The notes beneath the pieces were generated by a model. That model did no database searches. It saw nothing but the letters and a program-made list of their open reading frames with translations, and was not told the DNA's origin. A stretch of 40,376 nucleotides of DNA from a virus. The stretch is from IMG/VR virus record IMGVR_UViG_3300017605_000587, positions 1 through 40,376 of that record; one strand, given 5' to 3'. Below are positions 2,627 through 34,124 of the stretch, piece by piece; position 1 is the first letter of the stretch, and each line of letters begins with the position of its first letter. The translations under genes and the position numbers were made by a program.

Positions 2627-2908
2627 ATGAGCCGGCTTGACGAAGTCAGGAAAGACATCACTGAGATGTCTCTTGAGGAACTGCGGGAGCATGTCCGGCA
2701 TCTACGCGCCGACCGCAGGATCACGAAGGTAAGCAGGGGGACTAAGAAGACGAAAGCCCGAAACAGTGCCACGTCCAAGACCAAGGTTGGCAAGGTCCTG
2801 GACAAGATGACCGCCGAACAACTGGAAGCGCTTCTCGCAGAGATGGAAGGGGAAGAGAATGGACCTCAGGCAAATTCCGCTAGCTCAGGTCAAGATACCG
2901 AAGGATAG
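2627..2908 (+). CDS. Hypothetical charged helical protein (93 aa)
   Basis: I do not recognise this protein. It is very rich in Lys, Arg and Glu: an amphipathic N-terminal helix (EMSLEELREHVRHLRADRR), a basic Lys/Thr linker, then a second helix (MTAEQLEALLAEME) and a polar tail. The C-terminal 50 bases overlap the start of the ParB-methyltransferase gene in another frame. The start follows a weak GGA site. It looks like a small DNA- or protein-binding accessory factor; nothing more can be said. Confidence 0.7.
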   Translation: MSRLDEVRKDITEMSLEELREHVRHLRADRRITKVSRGTKKTKARNSATSKTKVGKVLDKMTAEQLEALLAEMEGEENGPQANSASSGQDTEG

Positions 2909-4157
2909 GGCAAGGGAGGATAAAGGGGACATCGTCGGCCTGGCTGCCGACATCAAGGCTAGGGGCCTCCTGCAGCCAATCACCGTCAAGTCTGACTTCA
3001 CCCTCATGGCTGGAGAGCGACGGTATCTGGCGCATCGCCACAATAGTGCAGATACGATCTGGGTGATTGTGCGCGGTGGCGAAGATGAGACCACCGCATC
3101 TGAAATCGAGCTGGTCGAGAACGTCGCTCGGAAGGACCTGCTATGGCCTGAGCGAGCCAAGCTTGAGTTGAAGATATGGAACCTCAAGGTCAAGCAGCAT
3201 GGTGAGTATGATCCATCCAAGAACCCCAATGGATGGTCTAACATCAAGCAAGGTAAGCTGGTTGGCGCTGACGAGTCTACTATACGTCGGCGTCTGGAGC
3301 TGGCTGAGACAATGGCTGAGGTTCCCGACCTCGAGCTCGATACCTGCAAAACCGAGGATGAGGCTTGGAAGGTCAACTCCAAGCTGAAGGAGCGCGGCGT
3401 TGAGCTGGAGATGCTCAAGAAGGTGCCTCCGTCAGTTAGGACCGCCATTGACAAGGCCTCGGAGCACTACATCATTGGCGACTTCTTCGAGCAGGTTAAG
3501 ACCCTGGATGCGGAGGTTGCCGACTTTGCCGAGGTCGATCCGCCCTATGGCGTCGATCTTGATAAGCGCAAGAGCCGCAACGCCGACGATCGGCCTATGG
3601 AGGAGTATCAGGAATGGTCGGAAGGTTCCTACCCAGCCCTATTCAAGCAGACGGCAACCCTAGTCTATACCAGCCTCAAGCCCAACGCATTTGCTGTGTT
3701 CTGGTATGGGATGAGCTGGCACACGGAGGTTATGGAAATCCTGCGCTCTTCAGGCTTCACTATTCCGGATATTCCTGCTGTATGGACCAAGGGCGAGGGA
3801 GGTCAGACTGCCTCGCCGGACACGACTTTAGGGAGCTGCTACGAACCATTTTTCCTAGCGCGGAAAGGACAGCCGAAGCTCGCAAAGCCCGGTCGAGGGA
3901 ACGTGTTCAACTTTCCCGGCCTCCAGAAAAAGGTTCATCCGACTGAGAAGCCTATCGCTCTGCTCGAGGATATCATCAGAACGATCTGCTTCCCTGGCAG
4001 TTTCGTGTTGGTGCCCTTCCTTGGCAGTGGCGTAACCCTCCGGGCAGCCTACAAGCTAGGCCACACCGGCTTGGGCTGGGACCTATCGCAAGAGCACAAG
4101 AATGGCTTCCTAAAGCGGGTCGCTGAGGATAAAGGAAATGCAAAGCAGAAAGTGTGA
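2859..4157 (+). CDS. ParB-like domain fused to DNA methyltransferase
   Basis: Residues 1 to about 110 form a ParB/Srx-type domain (IPLAQVKIPKDRARED at the start, then LMAGERRYLAH and ELVENVARKDL). A linker helix region follows, then an S-adenosylmethionine-dependent methyltransferase. The catalytic motif IV is DPPY at residues 227-230, and the SAM-binding motif I is FLGSG at 387-391, after HPTEKP. Motif IV before motif I is the beta-class order of N6-adenine or N4-cytosine enzymes. Such ParB-methyltransferase fusions are known in phages and usually lack a partner restriction gene, as here. Likely roles are protection from host restriction or marking of replicated DNA. AGGGGAAG precedes the ATG. 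The 3' end overlaps the GIY-YIG gene by 20 bases. Confidence 0.88.
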   Translation: MDLRQIPLAQVKIPKDRAREDKGDIVGLAADIKARGLLQPITVKSDFTLMAGERRYLAHRHNSADTIWVIVRGGEDETTASEIELVENVARKDLLWPERAKLELKIWNLKVKQHGEYDPSKNPNGWSNIKQGKLVGADESTIRRRLELAETMAEVPDLELDTCKTEDEAWKVNSKLKERGVELEMLKKVPPSVRTAIDKASEHYIIGDFFEQVKTLDAEVADFAEVDPPYGVDLDKRKSRNADDRPMEEYQEWSEGSYPALFKQTATLVYTSLKPNAFAVFWYGMSWHTEVMEILRSSGFTIPDIPAVWTKGEGGQTASPDTTLGSCYEPFFLARKGQPKLAKPGRGNVFNFPGLQKKVHPTEKPIALLEDIIRTICFPGSFVLVPFLGSGVTLRAAYKLGHTGLGWDLSQEHKNGFLKRVAEDKGNAKQKV

Positions 4158-4629
4158 TCACTGCGGAGAAGTAAAGGACGTATCTAAATTTAGGGGATAT
4201 ACATGCTCAACATGTAGATATAGAATGTTTAAGGATAGTAGTAAGCGATCCACTGAGTATTATAGAGATGCACCATCGTGGGGTGGATGCACAGAAAGGA
4301 TTATGGATATAACTGGCCTTGTGTTTATAAATCCAGGTGTCTATCTTTTATACAGTGATAATCTCCTTCTTTACATTGGATCATCTAAAAATGTTATAAG
4401 GCGTGTGACCCATCATAGGACTTCATGTAGAAAGGCTCATGGAAGGATAGGTAATATATTCAATAGGGTCGAGTATATTCGAGAGGATAATATATATGCT
4501 ATGAGGGCTTTGGAAAGGAAGCTTATAGCAGAGCTTCAGCCGCCTTACAATAGATATGGTGTAAATAATCGACTAAGTTCGGAAGATTTGGATGATATGC
4601 TACATACGGTGAGGGCATCTCATGTCTAG
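4138..4629 (+). CDS. GIY-YIG endonuclease with N-terminal zinc ribbon
   Basis: A 163-residue protein. C6-x2-C9 and C23-x2-C26 form a small zinc ribbon. The GIY-YIG domain then has G67-V-Y69 and Y79-I-G81, with R88, E126 and N138 in the positions of the catalytic residues, so an active single-strand or double-strand nicking nuclease is expected. Free-standing GIY-YIG genes of this kind are commonly homing endonucleases. The gene is visibly AT-rich with many AGG, ATA and TAT codons, unlike the GC-rich genes on both sides, which points to recent acquisition. It is wedged by overlaps of 20 and 8 bases between the methyltransferase and the first half of the split DNA polymerase. Confidence 0.88.
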   Translation: MQSRKCDHCGEVKDVSKFRGYTCSTCRYRMFKDSSKRSTEYYRDAPSWGGCTERIMDITGLVFINPGVYLLYSDNLLLYIGSSKNVIRRVTHHRTSCRKAHGRIGNIFNRVEYIREDNIYAMRALERKLIAELQPPYNRYGVNNRLSSEDLDDMLHTVRASHV

Positions 4630-6244
4630 CCCATGGGAAGAAGGTGATCCTAACTCCAAACTGCTGGTTCTCGCCGAGGCGCCCAGCCGAATGGAGATGA
4701 AGCTGAACCGACCCTTGATCGGTCCAGCTGGCGAGGTATTCAACGACTGCCTACACACCTCAGGCATTGCTCGCCGCCAGTGCTATATCCTCAACCTCTG
4801 GCCGTTCCAGGTCACCAAGGATAAGGCTGGGCACTTCTGGCACGGCGGTGAGTGTCTGTGGAATAGCCGGGGCTTCACCGAGGCGGGTGTCCAAGCCTAT
4901 ATGCCCACCATCGAGAAGATCAGGGCGTGTGGGGCTAACAACATCCTCACACTGGGCCAGCAGGCTATGTCTGCCCTGACCGGCGATAAGCGGCCAATCA
5001 TGAAGTGGCGCGGTAGCCCGCTGTGGTCTCCTATCGTAGACCGGAAGTTCATGCCTACCGTACACCCGGCTGCTACGATCCACGGAGTGTATGTCTGGCG
5101 ATATCTGATATCCGGAGACATGCAGAAAATCGCCCGTGATTTGGATGATAGGCAGTTAGTTCTGCCATCCCGGAACCTTATAATAAGGCCAACGTACTCA
5201 GACTTTTACCACTATATTGAAGCCTGTCGCGAAGCCAAGCGGGTCTGCACCGACATCGAAGTTGTAAACCATCAGGTTTCTTGCTTCAGTCTGGCCTACA
5301 AGAAAGACGAGGCTATGACTGTGCCCTTGGTCGGCCCCACGGGCGATCACTACTGGGATGAGGACAATGAGATTGCGCTGTGGAAGGCATATGCTGGCCT
5401 CCTCAGCGATCCCGAGGTGATGAAGATCAATCAGAACATAGTGGGCTTCGACGCTGTGTTTCTGTTGCAGCAGTGTAACATCCACATCAAGGGACCCTTG
5501 GGCGATCCTATGATCGCGCAGCACATCATCTACCCGGACTTCAAGAAGGGTCTGGACTTCATCGCGAGCATGCATACGAGGGAGCCCTACTGGAAGGACG
5601 ATGGAAAGATATGGAAGAACCCAAACATAGACTGGAACACCTTCCAGCGGTACTGCGGGAAAGACGCTTGTGTGGCCCTCGAAACCTGGGACGTTCTATC
5701 TCAGGAGATGACCGATGGCGGCTACTGGCCCACATACAACAGGACTGTAAGAATGGCTGGACCCTTAGCCTACATGGCAGTAACTGGGCTCGCGGTGGAC
5801 CGAGAAGGCCTCGCGGCTACCAAGGTAAAGCTCGACAAGGCGATTGCCGAGAAGCAGGCCAAGCTGAACGAGTTGGTGGGCTTCGAGCTGAACGTACAGA
5901 GCCCGAAGCAGTGCATCACCTACTTCTACGAGACCCTAAAGCTCCCTCCGTACAAGAATAGGGAGGGTGGCTACACTACTGACGACAAGGCCATGAGCCG
6001 CATCTACCGCAAGGCAGGGGTGGGTGCGGCCCAGGCTAAGGTCGTCCAGGAGCTTAGGGCGCTGATGAAACTCAAAGGAACATACATAGATGTGGAACTT
6101 GATACTGATAACCGGCTGCGCTGTAGCTGGAACCCTCGGGGTACGTGGACTGGCCGGCTATCTAGCGGACAGACTCTGATGGGCACAGGCATGAACCTGC
6201 AGAACCTTCACCCTGAGTTTAAATCCTTCATTGTGGCAGGATAA
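4622..6244 (+). CDS. polA: DNA polymerase I family A, N-terminal half (UDG-like domain + 3'-5' exonuclease + polymerase start)
   Basis: 540 residues. Residues 1 to ~180 resemble family 4/5 uracil-DNA glycosylases: AEAPSRME, RPLIGPAGEVF, TLGQQAMSALTG and HPAATIHG. The iron-sulphur cysteines are not evident and GEAPG is altered to AEAPS, so activity is uncertain. The DEDDy exonuclease follows: D211-x-E213 (Exo I), N272...F276-D277 (Exo II) and Y344-C-G-K-D348 (Exo III). The polymerase begins with a thumb region and reaches TGRLSS at 510-515 and NLQN at 525-528. The protein then ends at SFIVAG, where family A enzymes normally continue through one short loop into motif A. That motif starts the gene at 7356. 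GAGGG precedes the ATG. This half cannot polymerise alone; I infer it assembles with the second half. Confidence 0.92.
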   Translation: MSSPWEEGDPNSKLLVLAEAPSRMEMKLNRPLIGPAGEVFNDCLHTSGIARRQCYILNLWPFQVTKDKAGHFWHGGECLWNSRGFTEAGVQAYMPTIEKIRACGANNILTLGQQAMSALTGDKRPIMKWRGSPLWSPIVDRKFMPTVHPAATIHGVYVWRYLISGDMQKIARDLDDRQLVLPSRNLIIRPTYSDFYHYIEACREAKRVCTDIEVVNHQVSCFSLAYKKDEAMTVPLVGPTGDHYWDEDNEIALWKAYAGLLSDPEVMKINQNIVGFDAVFLLQQCNIHIKGPLGDPMIAQHIIYPDFKKGLDFIASMHTREPYWKDDGKIWKNPNIDWNTFQRYCGKDACVALETWDVLSQEMTDGGYWPTYNRTVRMAGPLAYMAVTGLAVDREGLAATKVKLDKAIAEKQAKLNELVGFELNVQSPKQCITYFYETLKLPPYKNREGGYTTDDKAMSRIYRKAGVGAAQAKVVQELRALMKLKGTYIDVELDTDNRLRCSWNPRGTWTGRLSSGQTLMGTGMNLQNLHPEFKSFIVAG

Positions 6245-6245
6245 A

Positions 6246-6491
6246 ATGGCAGAAGATAAGTTAACCCCCGAGTATGCGAACGATCTAATCCTGGCTGAGT
6301 TCAAACGGGCCAGGCAGAAGTTCGCCCCTATGCGCGGCCCTCACGAGGGCTACGCCGTGATCCTCGAGGAGCTGGACGAGGCGTGGGATGAGATCAAGGC
6401 GAACAACATTCCCAGGGCACGGAAGGAAATGCTGCAAGTGGCTGCCATGGCCCTTGCATTCTTGGTGGAGGTAGGAAATGGTCCCGAGTAA
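6246..6491 (+). CDS. MazG-like nucleotide pyrophosphohydrolase (small)
   Basis: An 81-residue all-helical protein starting one base after the polymerase stop, with AGGA ahead of ATG 6246. The motif EELDEAWDEI matches the EExxE metal-binding helix of MazG/all-alpha NTP pyrophosphatases, and a second helix carries KEMLQVAAMAL. Phages use such proteins to hydrolyse unwanted nucleotides or to lower alarmone levels. Its length is about that of a single minimal MazG-like unit. It overlaps the lysozyme gene by 14 bases. It is one of two genes that interrupt the DNA polymerase. Confidence 0.72.
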   Translation: MAEDKLTPEYANDLILAEFKRARQKFAPMRGPHEGYAVILEELDEAWDEIKANNIPRARKEMLQVAAMALAFLVEVGNGPE

Positions 6492-7359
6492 AATCATCCA
6501 GCCTATGGTGGTCGATTTAAGCCATCACAACGTCGTCAACAGCTTTCAGCTCGCCAAGAACTGGGGGATCAGGGCGGTCATCCACAAGGCATCTGAGGGG
6601 ACAACCATCGTTGATCCCACCTACAAGACCAGACGAACCATGGCTAGGGATGTGGGCTTCCTGTGGGGGGCCTATCACTTCTTTCGTCCAGGCAATATTC
6701 AGCGACAGGTGGAGTGGTTTCTGGAGTGTGCTAACCCTGACGATCACACCCTCATGGTGCTGGATCACGAAGACTCTGGATGCTCAGCCGCTGACGCCGA
6801 GATGTTCTTGCGTCTCCTCGAGGATAAGATCAAACGTAAGCCCGCTCTGTACAGCGGCAACGTGATCAAGGATCAGTTGGGCAACCAGATTAACGATTAT
6901 CTGGGCTCGTGCCGACTGTGGCTGGCCCAGTACGGGGATAGTCCAAAGTGCCAAGCCAGCTGGGACAACTGGTGGCTGTGGCAGTACACTGGGGATGGCA
7001 TCGGACCTAAGCCACAGGTGGTGCCTGGCATCGGCGAGGGCAACAATCCCCAAGCGCCTATCGACGTGAATAGCTTCGCGGGGACCGTTGGCGAGCTACA
7101 GGAGAGTTGGGCAGGTGATATGTCTATCGGACCCTACGAACCTAACGCCTCTGAGATCACCGCCTTTATCCAGAGCGCTATCACCCTGCTGGGCTATGCC
7201 GATCTGGCAATCGATGGCCGCTATGGCGTCAAGACCCGCGATGCGATCTGCAAGTACCAGCTAGATAACGAGCTGCAGATCACCGGCCTGCCAGATCAGC
7301 CTACAATTGAAGATGTATGCGATGAGGTTCAGAAGTGGAATGTACGCAGACGCAAATGA
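6478..7359 (+). CDS. GH25 lysozyme (endolysin) with peptidoglycan-binding domain
   Basis: 293 residues. The GH25 (Chalaropsis-type) muramidase core opens with MVVDLSHHN, has the catalytic D96-x-E98 (LDHEDSG), and later WLAQYG, WWLWQYTGDG and a terminal IDVNSFAG. A PG_binding_1-type domain spans about residues 225-285 (LLGYADLAIDGRYGVKT). There is no signal peptide, so export should depend on a holin; a holin-like gene is encoded far away at 16650-16856. GGAGG precedes the ATG. The gene lies between the two halves of the DNA polymerase and ends in an ATGA overlap with the second half. An endolysin inside a replication operon, rather than in the lysis cluster, is unusual. Confidence 0.9.
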   Translation: MVPSKIIQPMVVDLSHHNVVNSFQLAKNWGIRAVIHKASEGTTIVDPTYKTRRTMARDVGFLWGAYHFFRPGNIQRQVEWFLECANPDDHTLMVLDHEDSGCSAADAEMFLRLLEDKIKRKPALYSGNVIKDQLGNQINDYLGSCRLWLAQYGDSPKCQASWDNWWLWQYTGDGIGPKPQVVPGIGEGNNPQAPIDVNSFAGTVGELQESWAGDMSIGPYEPNASEITAFIQSAITLLGYADLAIDGRYGVKTRDAICKYQLDNELQITGLPDQPTIEDVCDEVQKWNVRRRK

Positions 7360-8357
7360 TTATGATGGAGTTTGATCTAGCCGGCGCCGAGTGGGTTGTG
7401 GTTGCCTATCTGTCAGGCGACGCCAACATGCTCGGCGTCGTTGCTAGTGGCAAGAGCCCTCACGTGGTTACGGGCAGCCTAATCACCAGCGTTCCTGAAG
7501 ACCTGGTTATCGAGGAACACAAAGCAGTCGGGTCCAATACAGACGAAAACACCATCAGGGAGATCAGAGACACTAAGCTTCCGCATCTGGTTGACATGGC
7601 CGAGAAGGGGCTCATATTTCTGCCCCGTGTAATGTCTATCCGCCAGGCAGGCAAGAAGTCGAACCACGGCCTTAACTACAACATGAAATATAGGCGCTTT
7701 GCGCTTGAGAACGAGATAAGTGAGGCGGATGCCATGCCACTGGTAGAAGCCTACACAACAGTCGCCTATCCAGGGATACCTAAATGGCATGAGTCTATTC
7801 GGCAGGAGATGCGAGACCACGACCGGACTATGACCAACTGCTTCGGCCGAAAGGTTCGGCTGCTGGGAGAGTGGGGTTCGGAGCTGTTCGATCAGGCCTA
7901 CAGCTTCAAGCCCCAGTCGACTGTTGCTGACAGTTGTCTGCAGGCGATGTGTCAGGTGTATGAGAACGAGAGCGACCGCTTTCGCAAGGTCCGCCTGGGC
8001 GCTCAGGTTCACGACTCTCTGATGATTCTGCATCCTATTCCGACCAATTGGAACGAGTGGGTTGGTCTAGCCATGACCGTACAGGACATCAAGGGCTATA
8101 TGCGGCCCCCACTGGTGTATGAGGGCCGCGAGTTTAGGCTGGGCTGCGATCTGAAGATCGGCTTCGACTGGGGCCACATGCGAGAGGTCAAGACGTCAGA
8201 GGACTATCCTGAGAAGACCGCTGCCGCTATTAGGTCCGCCGTAGAAGCGGCGCGGGAGGAGCGCGCCTTGGCAGCTGCATCACCTGAAATCCCCCTTGAT
8301 CCTGGTCCTGAACCGGAGTGGTTGCCCCAGTTATCTGAACCCCTGAGCCCTGTGTAG
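7356..8357 (+). CDS. polA: DNA polymerase I family A, C-terminal half (motifs A, B, C)
   Basis: 333 residues from an ATG that overlaps the lysozyme stop (ATGA); a GTG at 7335 would only add residues lacking homology. Motif A is D7-L-A-G-A-E12 (catalytic Asp and steric-gate Glu), followed by AYLSGD. Motif B is R96-x3-K100-x3-H104-G-x2-Y108, aligning with E. coli R754, K758, F762 and Y766. Motif C is V-H219-D220-S221. His at the 762 position and Ser instead of Glu after the motif C Asp are departures from E. coli Pol I. Together with 4622-6244 it makes one near-complete enzyme split in the loop before motif A. The C-terminal ~45 residues are Ala/Pro-rich and lie antisense to the hydrolase gene. 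Confidence 0.92.
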   Translation: MIMMEFDLAGAEWVVVAYLSGDANMLGVVASGKSPHVVTGSLITSVPEDLVIEEHKAVGSNTDENTIREIRDTKLPHLVDMAEKGLIFLPRVMSIRQAGKKSNHGLNYNMKYRRFALENEISEADAMPLVEAYTTVAYPGIPKWHESIRQEMRDHDRTMTNCFGRKVRLLGEWGSELFDQAYSFKPQSTVADSCLQAMCQVYENESDRFRKVRLGAQVHDSLMILHPIPTNWNEWVGLAMTVQDIKGYMRPPLVYEGREFRLGCDLKIGFDWGHMREVKTSEDYPEKTAAAIRSAVEAAREERALAAASPEIPLDPGPEPEWLPQLSEPLSPV

Positions 8358-15552: not shown

Positions 15553-15942
15553 TTAGAGCCTCCTAACGTAAAATCGAACACCGTTCCGTTCGGCATAGAA
15601 CTCGCCTATGCCCATCTTCTGCGCCGACTTATCCAAAATAGAGTCAGTTTCCGTGTGGAAAATGTAGGACTTTATACCCATGTGGCGCATTGTAATATCG
15701 TATAGATCGACCAGCCTAATCGCTGCCCGTGGACGTCGCCTATCAGATTTCAGGCAAAGCGGCCCAGCAATGATCATCTTGTCCTGGATGTGAGTACTGA
15801 TGAGGCCCACAACCTCACCTTCATCCAGCGCCAAGATAGTAGGAAAACGCAACTCCTGCTTACCGAAACCCTCCTTCGCTAAGAGGGCGTGGGCGGCTGC
15901 GTACTCCCCTGGGTTCTTTGCCAGTCTGTAGGCGGTTGTCAT
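15553..15942 (-). CDS. GNAT-like acetyltransferase (129 aa)
   Basis: Start at ATG 15942 in an ATGA overlap with the membrane protein upstream. The protein has the alternating helix-strand order of the GNAT fold: YAAAHALLAKEGF, FPTILALDEGEVVGLIS, a central AGPLCLK strand, RAAIRLVDLYDITMRHMGIKSYIF and a terminal GVRFYVRRL strand. GNAT proteins transfer acetyl groups from acetyl-CoA to small molecules or proteins; similar genes occur next to tail or internal protein genes in other podoviruses. Conserved acetyl-CoA loop Q/R-x-x-G-x-G/A is replaced by SDRRRPRAA, so the activity is unproven. Confidence 0.65.
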   Translation of the reverse strand: MTTAYRLAKNPGEYAAAHALLAKEGFGKQELRFPTILALDEGEVVGLISTHIQDKMIIAGPLCLKSDRRRPRAAIRLVDLYDITMRHMGIKSYIFHTETDSILDKSAQKMGIGEFYAERNGVRFYVRRL

Positions 15943-16208
15943 CGCTTCAGGGCCTCTCCCCTGGCTAGTCCAAGCTCGACCTTCTGCCTGATAATGGCGA
16001 TGTCGGACTTGATGCCCCACAGCGAGTTGTTCAGATCCTCGGCGCGGGTGTTGTACTTCTCAACTGCCTTCTCAATGTTCTCCAAGCGGCTCTGGTGTTC
16101 ATTAAGCGTAACTTTAGCAGCCACATAGGCGCTGATGCCTGAGCCTAGCATGCCTACCATGATAAGAATGTGCCCCAGGTTTACTTTACTGTCGATCTCG
16201 ATAGACAT
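15939..16208 (-). CDS. Small membrane protein with coiled coil
   Basis: 89 residues, ATG 16208 preceded by GGGAGG. One membrane segment near residues 12-33 (HILIMVGMLGSGISAYVAAKV) is followed by a charged coiled coil (NEHQSRLENIEKAVEKYN) and more helix. It is the last member of a cluster of four small membrane or secreted proteins. The shape fits an inner-membrane lysis accessory or signal-anchor protein; it could also be virion-associated. A longer reading upstream to 16409 overlaps the previous gene completely and is rejected. Confidence 0.72.
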   Translation of the reverse strand: MSIEIDSKVNLGHILIMVGMLGSGISAYVAAKVTLNEHQSRLENIEKAVEKYNTRAEDLNNSLWGIKSDIAIIRQKVELGLARGEALKR

Positions 16209-16432
16209 GCTTTGTCCTCCCAGCCACGGCAGGTGCACAGATAGTCTAGATCGTTGCCTTGTACCCGTCTGCGCATCTCCAGGGGCAAGGCTTTCACTGC
16301 CTCTTTGTCCTTCTCGCCTTTTACGATCCTCTCGTACGTACTGCAGAAGTCTCCTTTCAGTGGTGGCACCGCTAGAGGCTCCGACGCTCCGAAGCAGATG
16401 ATGAAGCATACTATTCCGCCTTCTGCTCTCAT
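16181..16432 (-). CDS. Small secreted Cys-containing lysis protein (o-spanin-like)
   Basis: 83 residues starting in an ATGA overlap with the upstream membrane protein. A short hydrophobic N-terminus (GGIVCFIICFGAS) with cysteines looks like a signal or lipoprotein signal. The body has FCSTYERIV, a helix (EAVKALPLEMRRRV), then NDLDYLCTCRGW. The pattern 'FC...., helix, N...Y..lC.W' occurs in small Rz1-like lysis proteins of phages of Gram-negative bacteria. Its partner would be the 74-residue membrane protein upstream. The assignment is tentative; the ORF itself is well placed. Confidence 0.55.
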   Translation of the reverse strand: MRAEGGIVCFIICFGASEPLAVPPLKGDFCSTYERIVKGEKDKEAVKALPLEMRRRVQGNDLDYLCTCRGWEDKACLSRSTVK

Positions 16433-16653
16433 AGCTTAGTCATCCGGTCCCAGAGATCGTCTTCCTCAGCCTGTGTCTGCCCTTTGACATATTCCCGAAG
16501 GCGTTTGCCTTCTTCAGTACGCTCCAACAGCTGCAGTGTTGCCGATGCAATGGCCTTGTCCTCGCCCTCCTTGATGAGCTTACGCTGATTGAGGTATGTC
16601 AACGTCTCGCTGACAATCCTCAACCCAAGGAGAACGAGGGAGGCCCAGGTCAC
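16429..16653 (-). CDS. Membrane-anchored helical protein (i-spanin-like)
   Basis: 74 residues, GTG start in a GTGA overlap with the holin-like gene. The N-terminal membrane segment is about residues 1-18 (TWASLVLLGLRIVSETL) and the rest is a charged helix (LIKEGEDKAIASATLQLLERTEEGKRLREYV) ending DDLWDRMTKL. One N-terminal anchor plus a periplasmic helix is the plan of inner-membrane spanin subunits. It is sandwiched between the holin-like and the secreted Cys gene, as in typical lysis cassettes. Confidence 0.65.
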   Translation of the reverse strand: MTWASLVLLGLRIVSETLTYLNQRKLIKEGEDKAIASATLQLLERTEEGKRLREYVKGQTQAEEDDLWDRMTKL

Positions 16654-16856
16654 GGCTTCGACGCCGCTGCCGCTGCAGGATCAGTCTTCTCTGGAGCCAT
16701 AAAGGAGAAGACCAAGCCAGCTACAGTGACCACCAATCCTCCGATGGTCTCTACCTGCGTTGGATCGAGCTTGCCTCTGGCCACCAAGATGCCACCTGCG
16801 AAGGTGATAACGTGGCGGATGAAGCCAAGGACCTGATCTCTGTTCACACCTGGCAT
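16650..16856 (-). CDS. Holin-like protein
   Basis: 68 residues with two predicted membrane segments, about 11-28 (FIRHVITFAGGILVARG) and 36-54 (VETIGGLVVTVAGLVFSFM), and a short polar Ala/Pro tail. Size and topology match small two-segment holins such as the Pam3-gp28 type. Holins permeabilise the inner membrane at a set time and let the endolysin out; the endolysin here is the GH25 enzyme at 6478. GGGAGAG precedes the ATG. It is the first gene of the lysis cluster. Confidence 0.75.
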   Translation of the reverse strand: MPGVNRDQVLGFIRHVITFAGGILVARGKLDPTQVETIGGLVVTVAGLVFSFMAPEKTDPAAAAASKP

Positions 16857-30627: not shown

Positions 30628-30744
30628 GCAGGCTCCGGCGTTGTTTTTTTGTCACATTCGACCCGAAAATCAATCCAAATCAAGGTGTTATCTCGGTTTG
30701 GACATGCCATAATGACCGAATTGTGACCTATGGGGAACCCTAAC
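30628..30744. promoter_or_regulatory. Divergent intergenic region between terL and RNR
   Basis: 117 bases that must start transcription both ways. A near-perfect inverted pair, GTCACATTCG at 30651-30660 and CGAATTGTGAC at 30717-30727, flanks it. Inside are two AAATCAA repeats (30667-30673, 30677-30683) spaced exactly ten bases, one helical turn. A CATAAT at 30708 is a possible -10 for the + strand. These look like operator sites for a regulator acting on both sides. Confidence 0.5.
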
Positions 30745-32454
30745 ATGACGAGCATGCCAGCGCCAGGCCCACAGTCCCGTGCATCAGTCGAGACGTTCCA
30801 GTTCAAATACGCTCAAAAGGAGGAAACCTTCAGGGATGTATGTAACAGAGTGGCCGGTGCCCTCGCTGACAGCGATAGTCACTATAGAGCATTCCGCGCA
30901 ATCACCCTGGATGCCAGGTTCTCTCCCGCAGGTCGAATTTTATCTAGCATCGGGACAACCAAAAAGGTTACGCCCTATAACTGTTTCGTATCAGGTACGT
31001 TCGAAGACAAGCTCCGAGGACCAAATTCTATTCTTGACCGCTTTGATCAGGCGGCAGAGACCATGAGGCGAGGCGGCGGCATCGGCTATGACTTCAGCCC
31101 ACTGCGCCCGCGGAACTCAGTGATCCGATCCCTGGACAGCCATGCCACCGGCCCTGTCGGGTTCATGGAGATGTTCAATACGCTGGGCAGCACGATCGCC
31201 TCCACTGGGGAGCGCCGAGGCGCCCAGATGTCGATGTTGCGCGTGGACCATCCTGACATCGAGGAGTTCATCCTTGCCAAACAGAACAAAGACAAGTTCA
31301 ACCGATTTAACTTCAGTATCGCTATCACTGACGAATTTATGCGAGCGGTGCAGACTGGCAGTGAGTTCCCCTTACAGTTCGAAGGTAGGACTTATCGGTC
31401 TATTTCTGCCACGACGCTGTGGGAGACTATCATGCGCTCGACTTGGGACTGGGGCGAGCCAGGAGTTATCTTCATCGACGCCATCAACCGAGAAAACAAC
31501 CTCAACTATTGCGAGCAAATAGCAGCCACGAACCCATGCTCAGAACAACCTCTCCCGCCCTTCGGCGCGTGCTTGCTCGGCTCAGTCAACCTGCCGAGAT
31601 ATCTGATCCCTTGCGCAAAGCCCAGCAAGATAAGCCAGCGGTGGCAACTCAACGTCATGCAGATGGCAGAGGACCTGAAGCACATCGTCAGGGCCATGGA
31701 CAATGTGGTAGACGTGGCCATGTATCCTATCGCGGAACAGAGGCAGACCGCTATTGGTACGAGGAGAATGGGGATTGGCCTTATGGGAGTGGCCAACGCA
31801 ATCGAGGCATGCGGTTTCCCCTACGGGACCTCGGACTACATCGCTATGCAGGATCAGGTAATGGAGATCCTGAAGAACGAATGCTACTACAACAGTGCCC
31901 TACTGGCGAAGGAGAAGGGCCCGTTCCCAAGATACGACGCGGACAAGTATCAACAGCAGCCCTTTATCCGTGGGCTAGGCTCCAAGGTGCAGGAGACGAT
32001 CCGGGAGCACGGCCTGCGGAACAGTCATCTGATCAGCATGGCTCCGACCGGCACAATCAGTATGTGTCTCGGTCACGTCTCGAGTGGCGTAGAGCCGGTG
32101 TTCAGCCCAAGGACGCAACGCGTCGTGCAGATGCCAGGTGGACCTGTACTGTACGAGACAGTCGACTACTCGGTGGCGCATCTGGGAGTGGAGCCACGCA
32201 CTGCCATGCAGGTTTCTGCACAGGAGCATATTGCAGTATTGGCCGCCGCCCAGAAGCATGTCGACAGTGCTGTTTCGAAGACATGCAACGTTCCGGCCGA
32301 TACTCCCTGGGATGACTTCAAGGGCCTGTATATGTCGGCGTGGCAAGGGGGAGCGAAGGGCTGTGCTACATTCACATCGGGCGGCAAGAGGGATGGCCTC
32401 CTGGAAGCCAAACCTGTGGCTGACTGTGAGGGACCCAGCTGTGCATTGGCATAG
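30745..32454 (+). CDS. nrdJ: Ribonucleotide reductase, class II (adenosylcobalamin-dependent)
   Basis: 569 residues. Redox cysteines C80 (YNCF) and C276 (GACLLGS), and the radical motif N263-P-C265-S-E267, are those of class II reductases; SMAPTGTISM and a C-terminal C-x4-C pair (CEGPSC) for re-reduction are present. There is no small subunit gene nearby and no glycyl radical motif (no class III). The enzyme makes deoxynucleotides using B12 from the host. Start at ATG 30745 has GGGGA seven bases upstream; an ATG at 30730 lacks a site. Length is compact for the family. It overlaps the deaminase by 14 bases. Confidence 0.9.
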   Translation: MTSMPAPGPQSRASVETFQFKYAQKEETFRDVCNRVAGALADSDSHYRAFRAITLDARFSPAGRILSSIGTTKKVTPYNCFVSGTFEDKLRGPNSILDRFDQAAETMRRGGGIGYDFSPLRPRNSVIRSLDSHATGPVGFMEMFNTLGSTIASTGERRGAQMSMLRVDHPDIEEFILAKQNKDKFNRFNFSIAITDEFMRAVQTGSEFPLQFEGRTYRSISATTLWETIMRSTWDWGEPGVIFIDAINRENNLNYCEQIAATNPCSEQPLPPFGACLLGSVNLPRYLIPCAKPSKISQRWQLNVMQMAEDLKHIVRAMDNVVDVAMYPIAEQRQTAIGTRRMGIGLMGVANAIEACGFPYGTSDYIAMQDQVMEILKNECYYNSALLAKEKGPFPRYDADKYQQQPFIRGLGSKVQETIREHGLRNSHLISMAPTGTISMCLGHVSSGVEPVFSPRTQRVVQMPGGPVLYETVDYSVAHLGVEPRTAMQVSAQEHIAVLAAAQKHVDSAVSKTCNVPADTPWDDFKGLYMSAWQGGAKGCATFTSGGKRDGLLEAKPVADCEGPSCALA

Positions 32455-32989
32455 ACGGTTCCTAGGCCTAGCCCGTCATATCAGCCAGTGGAGCAAGGAT
32501 AGCAACACTTGCTGCGGAGCAGTGATCGTTCGGCCTAACAAGTCGATCGCCTCACTGGGGTTCAATGGCTTCCCTCAGGGCATCGAGGATAACCCTGAGT
32601 GGCTGGTGAAGGACCCTACGCCACAGGATAGACACGAGAAGCTGAAGCGCGTCATCCATGCAGAGATGAATGCGCTTCTGTTCCTGCCAGAGAGGCAGCC
32701 CAACCTGATTATGTATGTGTGGCCGATGCTGCCTTGCCATCGATGTGCGGTTCATATTATACAGGCCGGGATTGCTCGGGTGATTGCACCTAAGTGCGAG
32801 CATGAGAGGTGGCAGGATAGTATGAACCTCACAAGGCAGCTGTTTCAAGAGGCGAAAGTTGCATCAGAGGAGATCGACTATGAAGATGTCTATAGCGGTG
32901 ACCGCCCTCGTGGCGGTGGTGCTGGGGGCTCCCTCATCCTGGGGAGCGGACAAGGGGGGACCGGCGGTCCGCCAAGGTACGATCTTTGA
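32441..32989 (+). CDS. Deoxycytidylate (dCMP) deaminase, GTG start
   Basis: 182 residues. The start GTG 32441 gives the usual family N-terminus (HWHRRFLGLARHISQWSKD) with GAGGG upstream; longer readings to 32138 run through the RNR gene. Zinc motifs: HAEMNALLF (His and catalytic Glu) and PCHRC. It converts dCMP to dUMP on the way to dTMP. The last 37 residues (SGDRPRGGGAGGS and on) are Gly-rich and read in the 110 bases that also encode the signal peptide of the next gene, so the true end function of this tail is unclear. Confidence 0.87.
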   Translation: MHWHRRFLGLARHISQWSKDSNTCCGAVIVRPNKSIASLGFNGFPQGIEDNPEWLVKDPTPQDRHEKLKRVIHAEMNALLFLPERQPNLIMYVWPMLPCHRCAVHIIQAGIARVIAPKCEHERWQDSMNLTRQLFQEAKVASEEIDYEDVYSGDRPRGGGAGGSLILGSGQGGTGGPPRYDL

Positions 32990-33485
32990 TGACTATGATC
33001 GACCTCTTCCGAAGAGTCCACCGCAAGGTTTCGCATACGTCGGAGTTACGGCCGGTGCTGGCGTGGCTCATCTTGATCTTGAAGATCTGCGTGATAGCGA
33101 TCATAGTTGGCTGGCTGGTGGGTACATTGGTTACTGGATCAGACCTGCGAATACGTTCTTCGGTCTTGGGGCCGAGGGTGACTTCGCTTGGCAGGACTTC
33201 AAGTTCCTGCGAAAGGCCGAGGATGATGTACTCTCTGATAGGAGTCGCTGGACTGCCAGCGCTCGGTTCAGGGGTGGCATCTACCTCACCGACAATCTGA
33301 TCGCGTATGGAACAGTGGGAGCGGGCTTCACAGATGTGGCGGATCCTGGTCCTGTGTATGGTGGTGGGCTTGAGCTATCACTTAGCCGTGTGGCTATCCG
33401 GGCCGAAGTCCTGAGGTATGACTTCTCGGGAGATGGTGCGGATCAGACGGTGGGCCGAGTTGGCCTGACGTTCAAGCTGCCTTGA
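32880..33485 (+). CDS. Outer-membrane beta-barrel protein with signal peptide
   Basis: 201 residues. ATG 32880 has GGAG upstream. A signal peptide (MKMSIAVTALVAVVLG, cut after SSWGA) leads to a short linker and an eight-strand-like barrel: GFAYVGVTAGAGVAHLDLED, SWLAGGYIGYWI, FFGLGAEGDFAWQDF, WTASARFRGGIYL, IAYGTVGAGFTDV, YGGGLELSLSRVAIRAEVLRY, and a terminal VGRVGLTFK strand. Opacity/OmpA-like barrels of this sort are typical alphaproteobacterial outer-membrane proteins. In a phage it could alter the host surface, for example to exclude other phages. Overlaps the deaminase by 110 bases. Confidence 0.8.
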   Translation: MKMSIAVTALVAVVLGAPSSWGADKGGPAVRQGTIFDDYDRPLPKSPPQGFAYVGVTAGAGVAHLDLEDLRDSDHSWLAGGYIGYWIRPANTFFGLGAEGDFAWQDFKFLRKAEDDVLSDRSRWTASARFRGGIYLTDNLIAYGTVGAGFTDVADPGPVYGGGLELSLSRVAIRAEVLRYDFSGDGADQTVGRVGLTFKLP

Positions 33486-33533
33486 GAAAGGCTGCGACCG
33501 TCAACCTTCCCCGGTAAGCGGATCGTGGCCCTG

Positions 33534-33568
33534 GGGCTGCCGGCAGCTTCGGCTGGGCAGCCCTTTTT
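33534..33568 (+). terminator. Strong rho-independent terminator after the barrel gene
   Basis: GGGCTGCC (33534-33541) pairs with GGCAGCCC (33556-33563), with an inner CAGC-UUCG-GCTG stem, followed by TTTTT. It closes the RNR - deaminase - barrel operon. Confidence 0.88.
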
Positions 33569-33818: not shown

Positions 33819-34124
33819 ATGGAACTGAAGCCAACTCGGAAGCCAGGATGGGACCCAGAGGGCAAGAAGCCCATCAAGCCGCTGGAGAGCATAGGGGCGG
33901 GCGGGGACAACCCCTGGGAGGTGGTGAACCGAGGGGCAGTGGGCGCCCCTTCGTCAAAGCGCCGGAACTGGACGAGGGCCGCACTGGGTGCTACTCCGCC
34001 CAGGGATGGTCCCTTCCAGGAGCCGGCCTCAGGTGTCGCTGGCTTGATGCCCCCGAAGGGCAGGGTCCAGCGCCAGTCCTCACCGTGGGAGATGCTGAAC
34101 GGGCGTTCCTCAAAACGTGGCTAG
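33819..34124 (+). CDS. Hypothetical protein with internal repeat (101 aa)
   Basis: ATG 33819 has GAGAGG upstream. The protein is rich in Gly, Pro, Arg and Lys and looks disordered. NPWEVVNRGAVGAPSSKRRN and SPWEMLNGRSSKRG repeat the same short motif (PWE..N......SSKR). I do not recognise it. A different frame running from 33677 to 34249 is less credible because it lacks a ribosome site. Confidence 0.55.
   Translation: MELKPTRKPGWDPEGKKPIKPLESIGAGGDNPWEVVNRGAVGAPSSKRRNWTRAALGATPPRDGPFQEPASGVAGLMPPKGRVQRQSSPWEMLNGRSSKRG

Follow-up and report, generated by a model that had tools for sequence, protein, structure and literature searches.

Small barrels borne by phages are known already, and phage-coded barrels that remodel the cell surface, such as Lom of phage lambda or the porin of phage PA-2, usually belong to the lysogen's story. 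What, then, would such a protein do in a phage with no detectable integrase, where its gene lies behind those for nucleotide metabolism? The question is raised by a virus record (hereafter the window) that is linear, 40,376 bases long and may be incomplete.

The barrel gene and its predicted product

The gene and its parts are as follows.

32880..33485, plus strand: gene for an outer-membrane beta-barrel protein of 201 aa, ATG start at 32880 and stop at 33485 (Pfam, AlphaFold2, relatives)
32866..32872, plus strand: Shine-Dalgarno-like AGAGGAG, read from the sequence
32880..32945, plus strand: predicted signal peptide, residues 1-22 (simple rule and a model helix at 2-15; cleavage after SSWG placed by eye)
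32946..33023, plus strand: N-terminal periplasmic linker, residues 23-48, a low-confidence coil in the AlphaFold2 model
33024..33482, plus strand: residues 49-201, predicted domain of eight barrel strands (AlphaFold2 model, structure searches)
33063..33104, plus strand: residues 62-75, putative surface-exposed loop L1 (mean pairwise identity 21%; a periplasmic N-terminus being assumed)
33189..33251, plus strand: residues 104-124, putative surface-exposed loop L2 (mean pairwise identity 21% in the family alignment)

The sequence-only reading of this locus had claimed a signal peptide and barrel strands. The N-terminus of the protein, positively charged and hydrophobic and modelled with low confidence as a helix, resembles a Sec signal peptide and passes a simple signal-peptide rule, which agrees with the first claim. 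The rule was passed by 3 of 45 hand-listed window genes, the other two lying in the lysis cassette, and by 142 of 5000 shuffles of the barrel protein. The putative mature start, ADKGG, is common to the related proteins at loci L010 and L008 (tblastn).

The absence of a barrel from structure prediction had been named beforehand as refuting the second claim; a barrel was predicted. AlphaFold2, run with a five-sequence alignment, gave eight strands (residues 49-67, 70-88, 94-113, 116-135, 140-151, 157-168, 171-180 and 188-200) at a mean pLDDT of 77.4, with 10-residue blocks from residue 51 onwards scoring 75-95, except for 59 at residues 111-120. In a Foldseek search of solved structures the leading matches were the OmpA transmembrane domain, Ail and OmpX, a second structural aligner gave Z scores of 17-19 for OmpA, OmpW and NspA, and a profile of five family members had the OmpA transmembrane domain as its best match among solved structures (E 3.5e-4). 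Strand amphipathicity was reached by 250 of 5000 shuffles and is weak evidence taken alone. The Pfam family OMP_b-brl (PF13505) matched the window protein at E 8.5e-5 and 23.2 bits, below its curated cut-off of 28.7; it matched four of the five family members (best 5.4e-14), and its cut-off was exceeded by relatives from the same slot, L087 (L014), L088 (L011), L089 and L086, in 3 of 50 and 1 of 32 records. The product is thus confidently predicted to be an 8-stranded barrel of the OmpA/NspA/OmpX fold, and during infection it probably resides in the host's outer membrane.

The protein resembles OMP_b-brl and the OmpA transmembrane domain, NspA and OmpX/Ail in predicted fold, in size and in its putative export signal. 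Full-length OmpA has a C-terminal domain, whereas the window protein, of 201 residues, stops right after strand 8, which reaches residue 200. Lambda Lom is likewise a phage-coded small exported outer-membrane barrel, but its phage is temperate; the Ail_Lom family (PF06316) had no match in nine records at E 0.1 and was not among the families listed at that threshold for five family members. Among predicted structures in BFVD, 26 phage barrels matched with E values of 1e-3 or lower, the lowest being 8.5e-8. These, from uncultured Caudovirales, Vibrio phage nt-1 and Synechococcus phage S-CBWM1 among others, share the predicted fold but only 6-20% identity, many with a high whole-alignment rmsd. 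PagL and PagP also appeared in the structural match list; a lipid A enzyme is nevertheless unlikely, as the family columns hold no invariant histidine or serine.

A slot between nrdJ and a conserved small protein

The barrel gene closes a string of genes bounded downstream by a conserved marker.

30730..32454, plus strand: nrdJ, adenosylcobalamin-dependent (class II) ribonucleotide reductase (TIGR02504, 482.1 bits, over cut-off; Pfam)
32441..32989, plus strand: deoxycytidylate deaminase gene (Pfam dCMP_cyt_deam_1, E 3.5e-16; PHROG dCMP deaminase, E 5.9e-30; GTG start placed by eye)
33533..33568, plus strand: hairpin with a UUCG loop and then a U-run, a probable terminator ending the string 3' of the barrel (folding energy against shuffles)
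33819..34124, plus strand: conserved small protein, the downstream edge of the slot (the downstream marker), conserved in relatives

The presumed deaminase start, GTG at 32441, sits within the end of nrdJ, and the deaminase gene continues, in a different frame, for 110 nt beyond the barrel start. These successive overlaps on one strand support the operon with nucleotide metabolism genes that had been proposed. The barrel start overlaps the upstream ORF out of frame, and in the same relative frame, in all seven carriers examined (the window, L008, L010, L011, L014, L017 and L086); the upstream ORF is not the deaminase in L011, L014 and L086. The segment 33525-33575 folds at -25.9 kcal/mol (z -1.74), with 9 of 200 shuffles equally good, so the hairpin outdoes most shuffles, though not strikingly; a simple terminator scan did not list it, and promoter and terminator scans of the window gave output near chance level. 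The downstream marker had no PHROG match, and a tRNA search found none. The terminase, portal, capsid and lysis genes lie on the strand opposite to the barrel. A search of 13 records for tyrosine and serine recombinases found none, in keeping with the claim of a phage with no integrase, although the window, being a linear record, may lack part of the genome; a role in lysogenic conversion is therefore without support.

Searches with the single protein in viral contigs, phages and PHROGs yielded no relative, and the gene could have been taken for an orphan; that reading was discarded when a route through the terminase revealed a family. A terminase search of viral contigs gave 80 loci, and tblastn of the barrel on 86 loci (including the window's own, L001) identified relatives at L010, L011, L014, L017 and L008, all on the strand opposite to the terminase; the L008 barrel is truncated where its contig stops. 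At the other four loci the barrel lies between nrdJ, with the deaminase present or absent, and the downstream marker. Record G050 (L089, L093) encodes the same barrel protein as L011, so that a family relative is present in the same slot of six related virus records, two of them with an identical protein. Full-length members are 31-41% identical to one another. A Pfam search of whole records found a barrel in 5 of 50 and 1 of 32; Pfam missed L008 and L017, which tblastn had detected, so these tallies are lower bounds, and adding both gives 8 of 82 records, many of which are short fragments unable to show the slot. The barrels of L041 (record G035) and L086 (G082) show weak likeness to the family and are 29% identical to each other. 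The absence of the family from a phage record collection and from PHROGs suggests a new family of an already known kind, the small phage barrels. In the stretch behind nrdJ of RHph_I65 and Pam3, both cultured and near in nrdJ, no outer-membrane protein is annotated and most products are hypothetical.

In a quick maximum-likelihood tree of 40 terminase rows, with slot labels assigned by hand, the window falls in a clade of ten rows (SH-aLRT 96). All six assessable members of this clade carry a barrel (the window, L008, L010, L011, L014 and L086); the contigs of the other four end before the slot. L017 and L041 are carriers outside the clade. The 22 labelled rows comprise eight with a barrel, seven with other small exported proteins and seven with neither, requiring at least three changes; the 14 rows without a barrel in the slot are more distant relatives. 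The barrel is a standing trait of the window's phage clade. Since small predicted phage barrels also recur in BFVD, the earlier description of the gene as unusual cargo was too strong.

In the slot before the downstream marker, L004, L028, L031 and L033 have paired small exported proteins beside a membrane protein. The pairs share recurring TTVVQTAPAID-like motifs and a SPIPLK-like C-terminal end, and that of L004 matched no Pfam family over cut-off.

Divergence of the barrel and its apparent exchange

Across the ten pairs of full-length family members, barrel identity is 31-41%, against 60-74% for nrdJ and 77-83% for the terminase. Between the window and L010 the barrel is 37% identical, nrdJ 70%, the deaminase 75% and the terminase 82%; between L011 and L014 the barrel is 41% identical, nrdJ 74% and the terminase 83%. 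L086 is a seventh record whose slot holds a barrel, here a different one, and the pair L011 and L086 is more extreme, the barrels being 30% identical and the terminase, nrdJ and downstream marker 93%, 82% and 73%. The L086 barrel is again modelled with eight strands, at a lower confidence (pLDDT 68.5) and from an alignment that included the window family. Such unlike barrels in close relatives point to replacement of the gene, or of its barrel part, or else to very fast divergence. The L086 gene (positions 1650-2369 of that locus, minus strand) has a leader and linker (AEGLFP...FDPI) like those of L014 and L011 and an unlike barrel, and from these sequences it looks as if the barrel part alone had been exchanged.

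Variation within the family is uneven. With loops and strands assigned from a topology inferred from the fold, mean pairwise identity over five sequences is 41% for strands and periplasmic turns, 21% for L1 and L2, 30% for L4 and 45% for L3. The barrel is not the sole fast gene of these phages, as the D5-type helicase is also poorly conserved, at 33-44% identity in three pairs.

What the barrel may do

Two features outside the string bear on a role in lysis.

15942-16856, minus strand: compact lysis cassette of holin-like, Rz-like and further spanin-like ORFs, conserved in records G012 and G050
6478-7359: GH25 endolysin (Pfam)

A barrel that destabilises the outer membrane or partners spanins could serve as an outer-membrane lysis step. 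Several relatives without a barrel have small exported, holin-like and Rz-like or spanin-like proteins in the slot, and in G035 a holin-like ORF adjoins the barrel and the late cassette has no holin match. The window and the barrel-carrying records G012 and G050, however, have a full late cassette, in which a holin, an Rz-like protein and a further spanin-like ORF lie at 16181-16856 (the holin being the only lysis PHROG match under E 1e-3), with the endolysin elsewhere, and the barrel sits on the opposite strand in the nucleotide cluster. The separate late cassette makes lysis an unlikely role. Such slot genes in some barrel-less relatives do leave room for later expression from the slot in part of these phages.

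The gene might also be a recent capture from a host, or neutral cargo useless to the phage. The fold is a cellular one, and weak bacterial matches at 25-34% identity came from Devosia, Methylocapsa, Phyllobacterium, Rhizobium and Shinella, all of them Hyphomicrobiales; these matches give a hint, and no more, of the host group. The proposed check for host homologues, made by limited searches, returned distant matches, but no close cellular relative. Bacterial genome contigs yielded nothing when searched with the terminase, or with a two-barrel alignment in a pattern-based and therefore insensitive search. The gene's GC content, 0.580 against 0.557 for the window, is not foreign, the barrel has been kept in every assessable clade member despite its divergence, and its start overlaps the upstream ORF in every carrier examined. 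Capture of a host gene, which the sequence-only reading had offered, is not supported as a recent event and appears very improbable, as does neutral cargo. Less probable still is a protein carried in the virion. HbpA/Pap31 of Bartonella, a broadly similar barrel (BFVD match at E 3.1e-3, 15% identity) that is not known from a phage operon of the window kind, was found in phage preparations (PMC2697382); in that paper it was not identified in preparations from liquid-grown cells without hemin, which suggests carry-over of host membrane, and the window barrel gene lies outside the structural cluster.

The main rival to the reading that we prefer is envelope maintenance or host mimicry, which we consider a lesser but serious possibility. 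The barrel would replace or supplement a host Omp25/OmpA-like protein and stabilise the outer membrane while host synthesis is shut down; drift would be tolerated, as any small barrel would serve. The bacterial genera matched and the OmpA transmembrane domain as best profile match are consistent with this, and if one barrel can be exchanged for another with the same fold, a generic structural need would explain it. On the other hand, relatives with the same replication genes manage without a barrel, and the excess of loop over strand variation goes beyond a purely structural need, although loops drift faster in any barrel.

With lysis weaker and lysogenic conversion unsupported, the best single reading, which we hold tentatively and at somewhat less than an even chance, is that the barrel is a surface-exposed superinfection-exclusion or receptor-masking protein; the block to superinfection or change of the host surface suggested earlier is thus favoured and compatible with the evidence. 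The exported 8-stranded barrel would be made from the nrdJ-deaminase string, and so, from gene order, probably ahead of lysis and together with the genes of DNA metabolism. After insertion in the outer membrane, its variable surface loops may mask, fill or push aside the receptor on which the phage and its competitors depend, so that secondary adsorption would be blocked and progeny kept off infected cells and debris. Replacement of the barrel and its fast divergence against conserved neighbours would then represent tracking of changing rivals or hosts. A precedent is Llp of the lytic phage T5, which mediates early superinfection exclusion at an outer-membrane receptor (PMC9586334); the window barrel would act in a functionally similar way, but Llp is a lipoprotein rather than a barrel and no homology is implied. 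The predicted fold and export signal, the use of one slot throughout the assessable clade, the divergence of the barrel relative to nrdJ and terminase, the unlike 8-stranded model of L086 in surroundings close to those of L011, the variable L1 and L2 on conserved strands and turns, the separate late lysis cassette and the lack of a recombinase in the records searched all argue for exclusion or masking. Set against it are the likewise poorly conserved helicase, the conserved L3, by which the surface is not variable throughout, the general tendency of barrel loops to drift, the more distant relatives without a barrel and a timing read from gene order alone. PADLOC anti-phage defence models returned no family for three barrels at E 0.01.

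What is of interest here is the fixed slot with exchanged barrels and no detectable integrase, which suggests that lytic soil phages, too, repaint the infected cell. It is possible, although we would not count it as likely, that these soil phages without an integrase reserve the place behind nrdJ for a barrel, which has diversified, and at times given way to a very different one, because it serves in lytic infection as a modular mask of the cell surface and follows changes in receptors or in rival phages. We found no modular barrel mask of such kind for a lytic phage in the literature searched, most subscription journals falling outside it. The pair L011 and L086, alike around the slot and unlike in the barrel, offers a ready comparison of barrel type with exclusion range.

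Elsewhere in the window, a family A DNA polymerase is split between ORFs at 4622-6244, which begins with a uracil-DNA-glycosylase domain, and 7335-8357, with the GH25 lysozyme gene in the gap. G012 and G050 show the same split together with GH25; G003, G027 and G035 show it too, but the stretches searched there gave no GH25 match. The ORF at 2859-4157 is conserved in five relatives and, judged by eye, presumably fuses an N-terminal part like ParB with a C-terminal part like a DNA methyltransferase.
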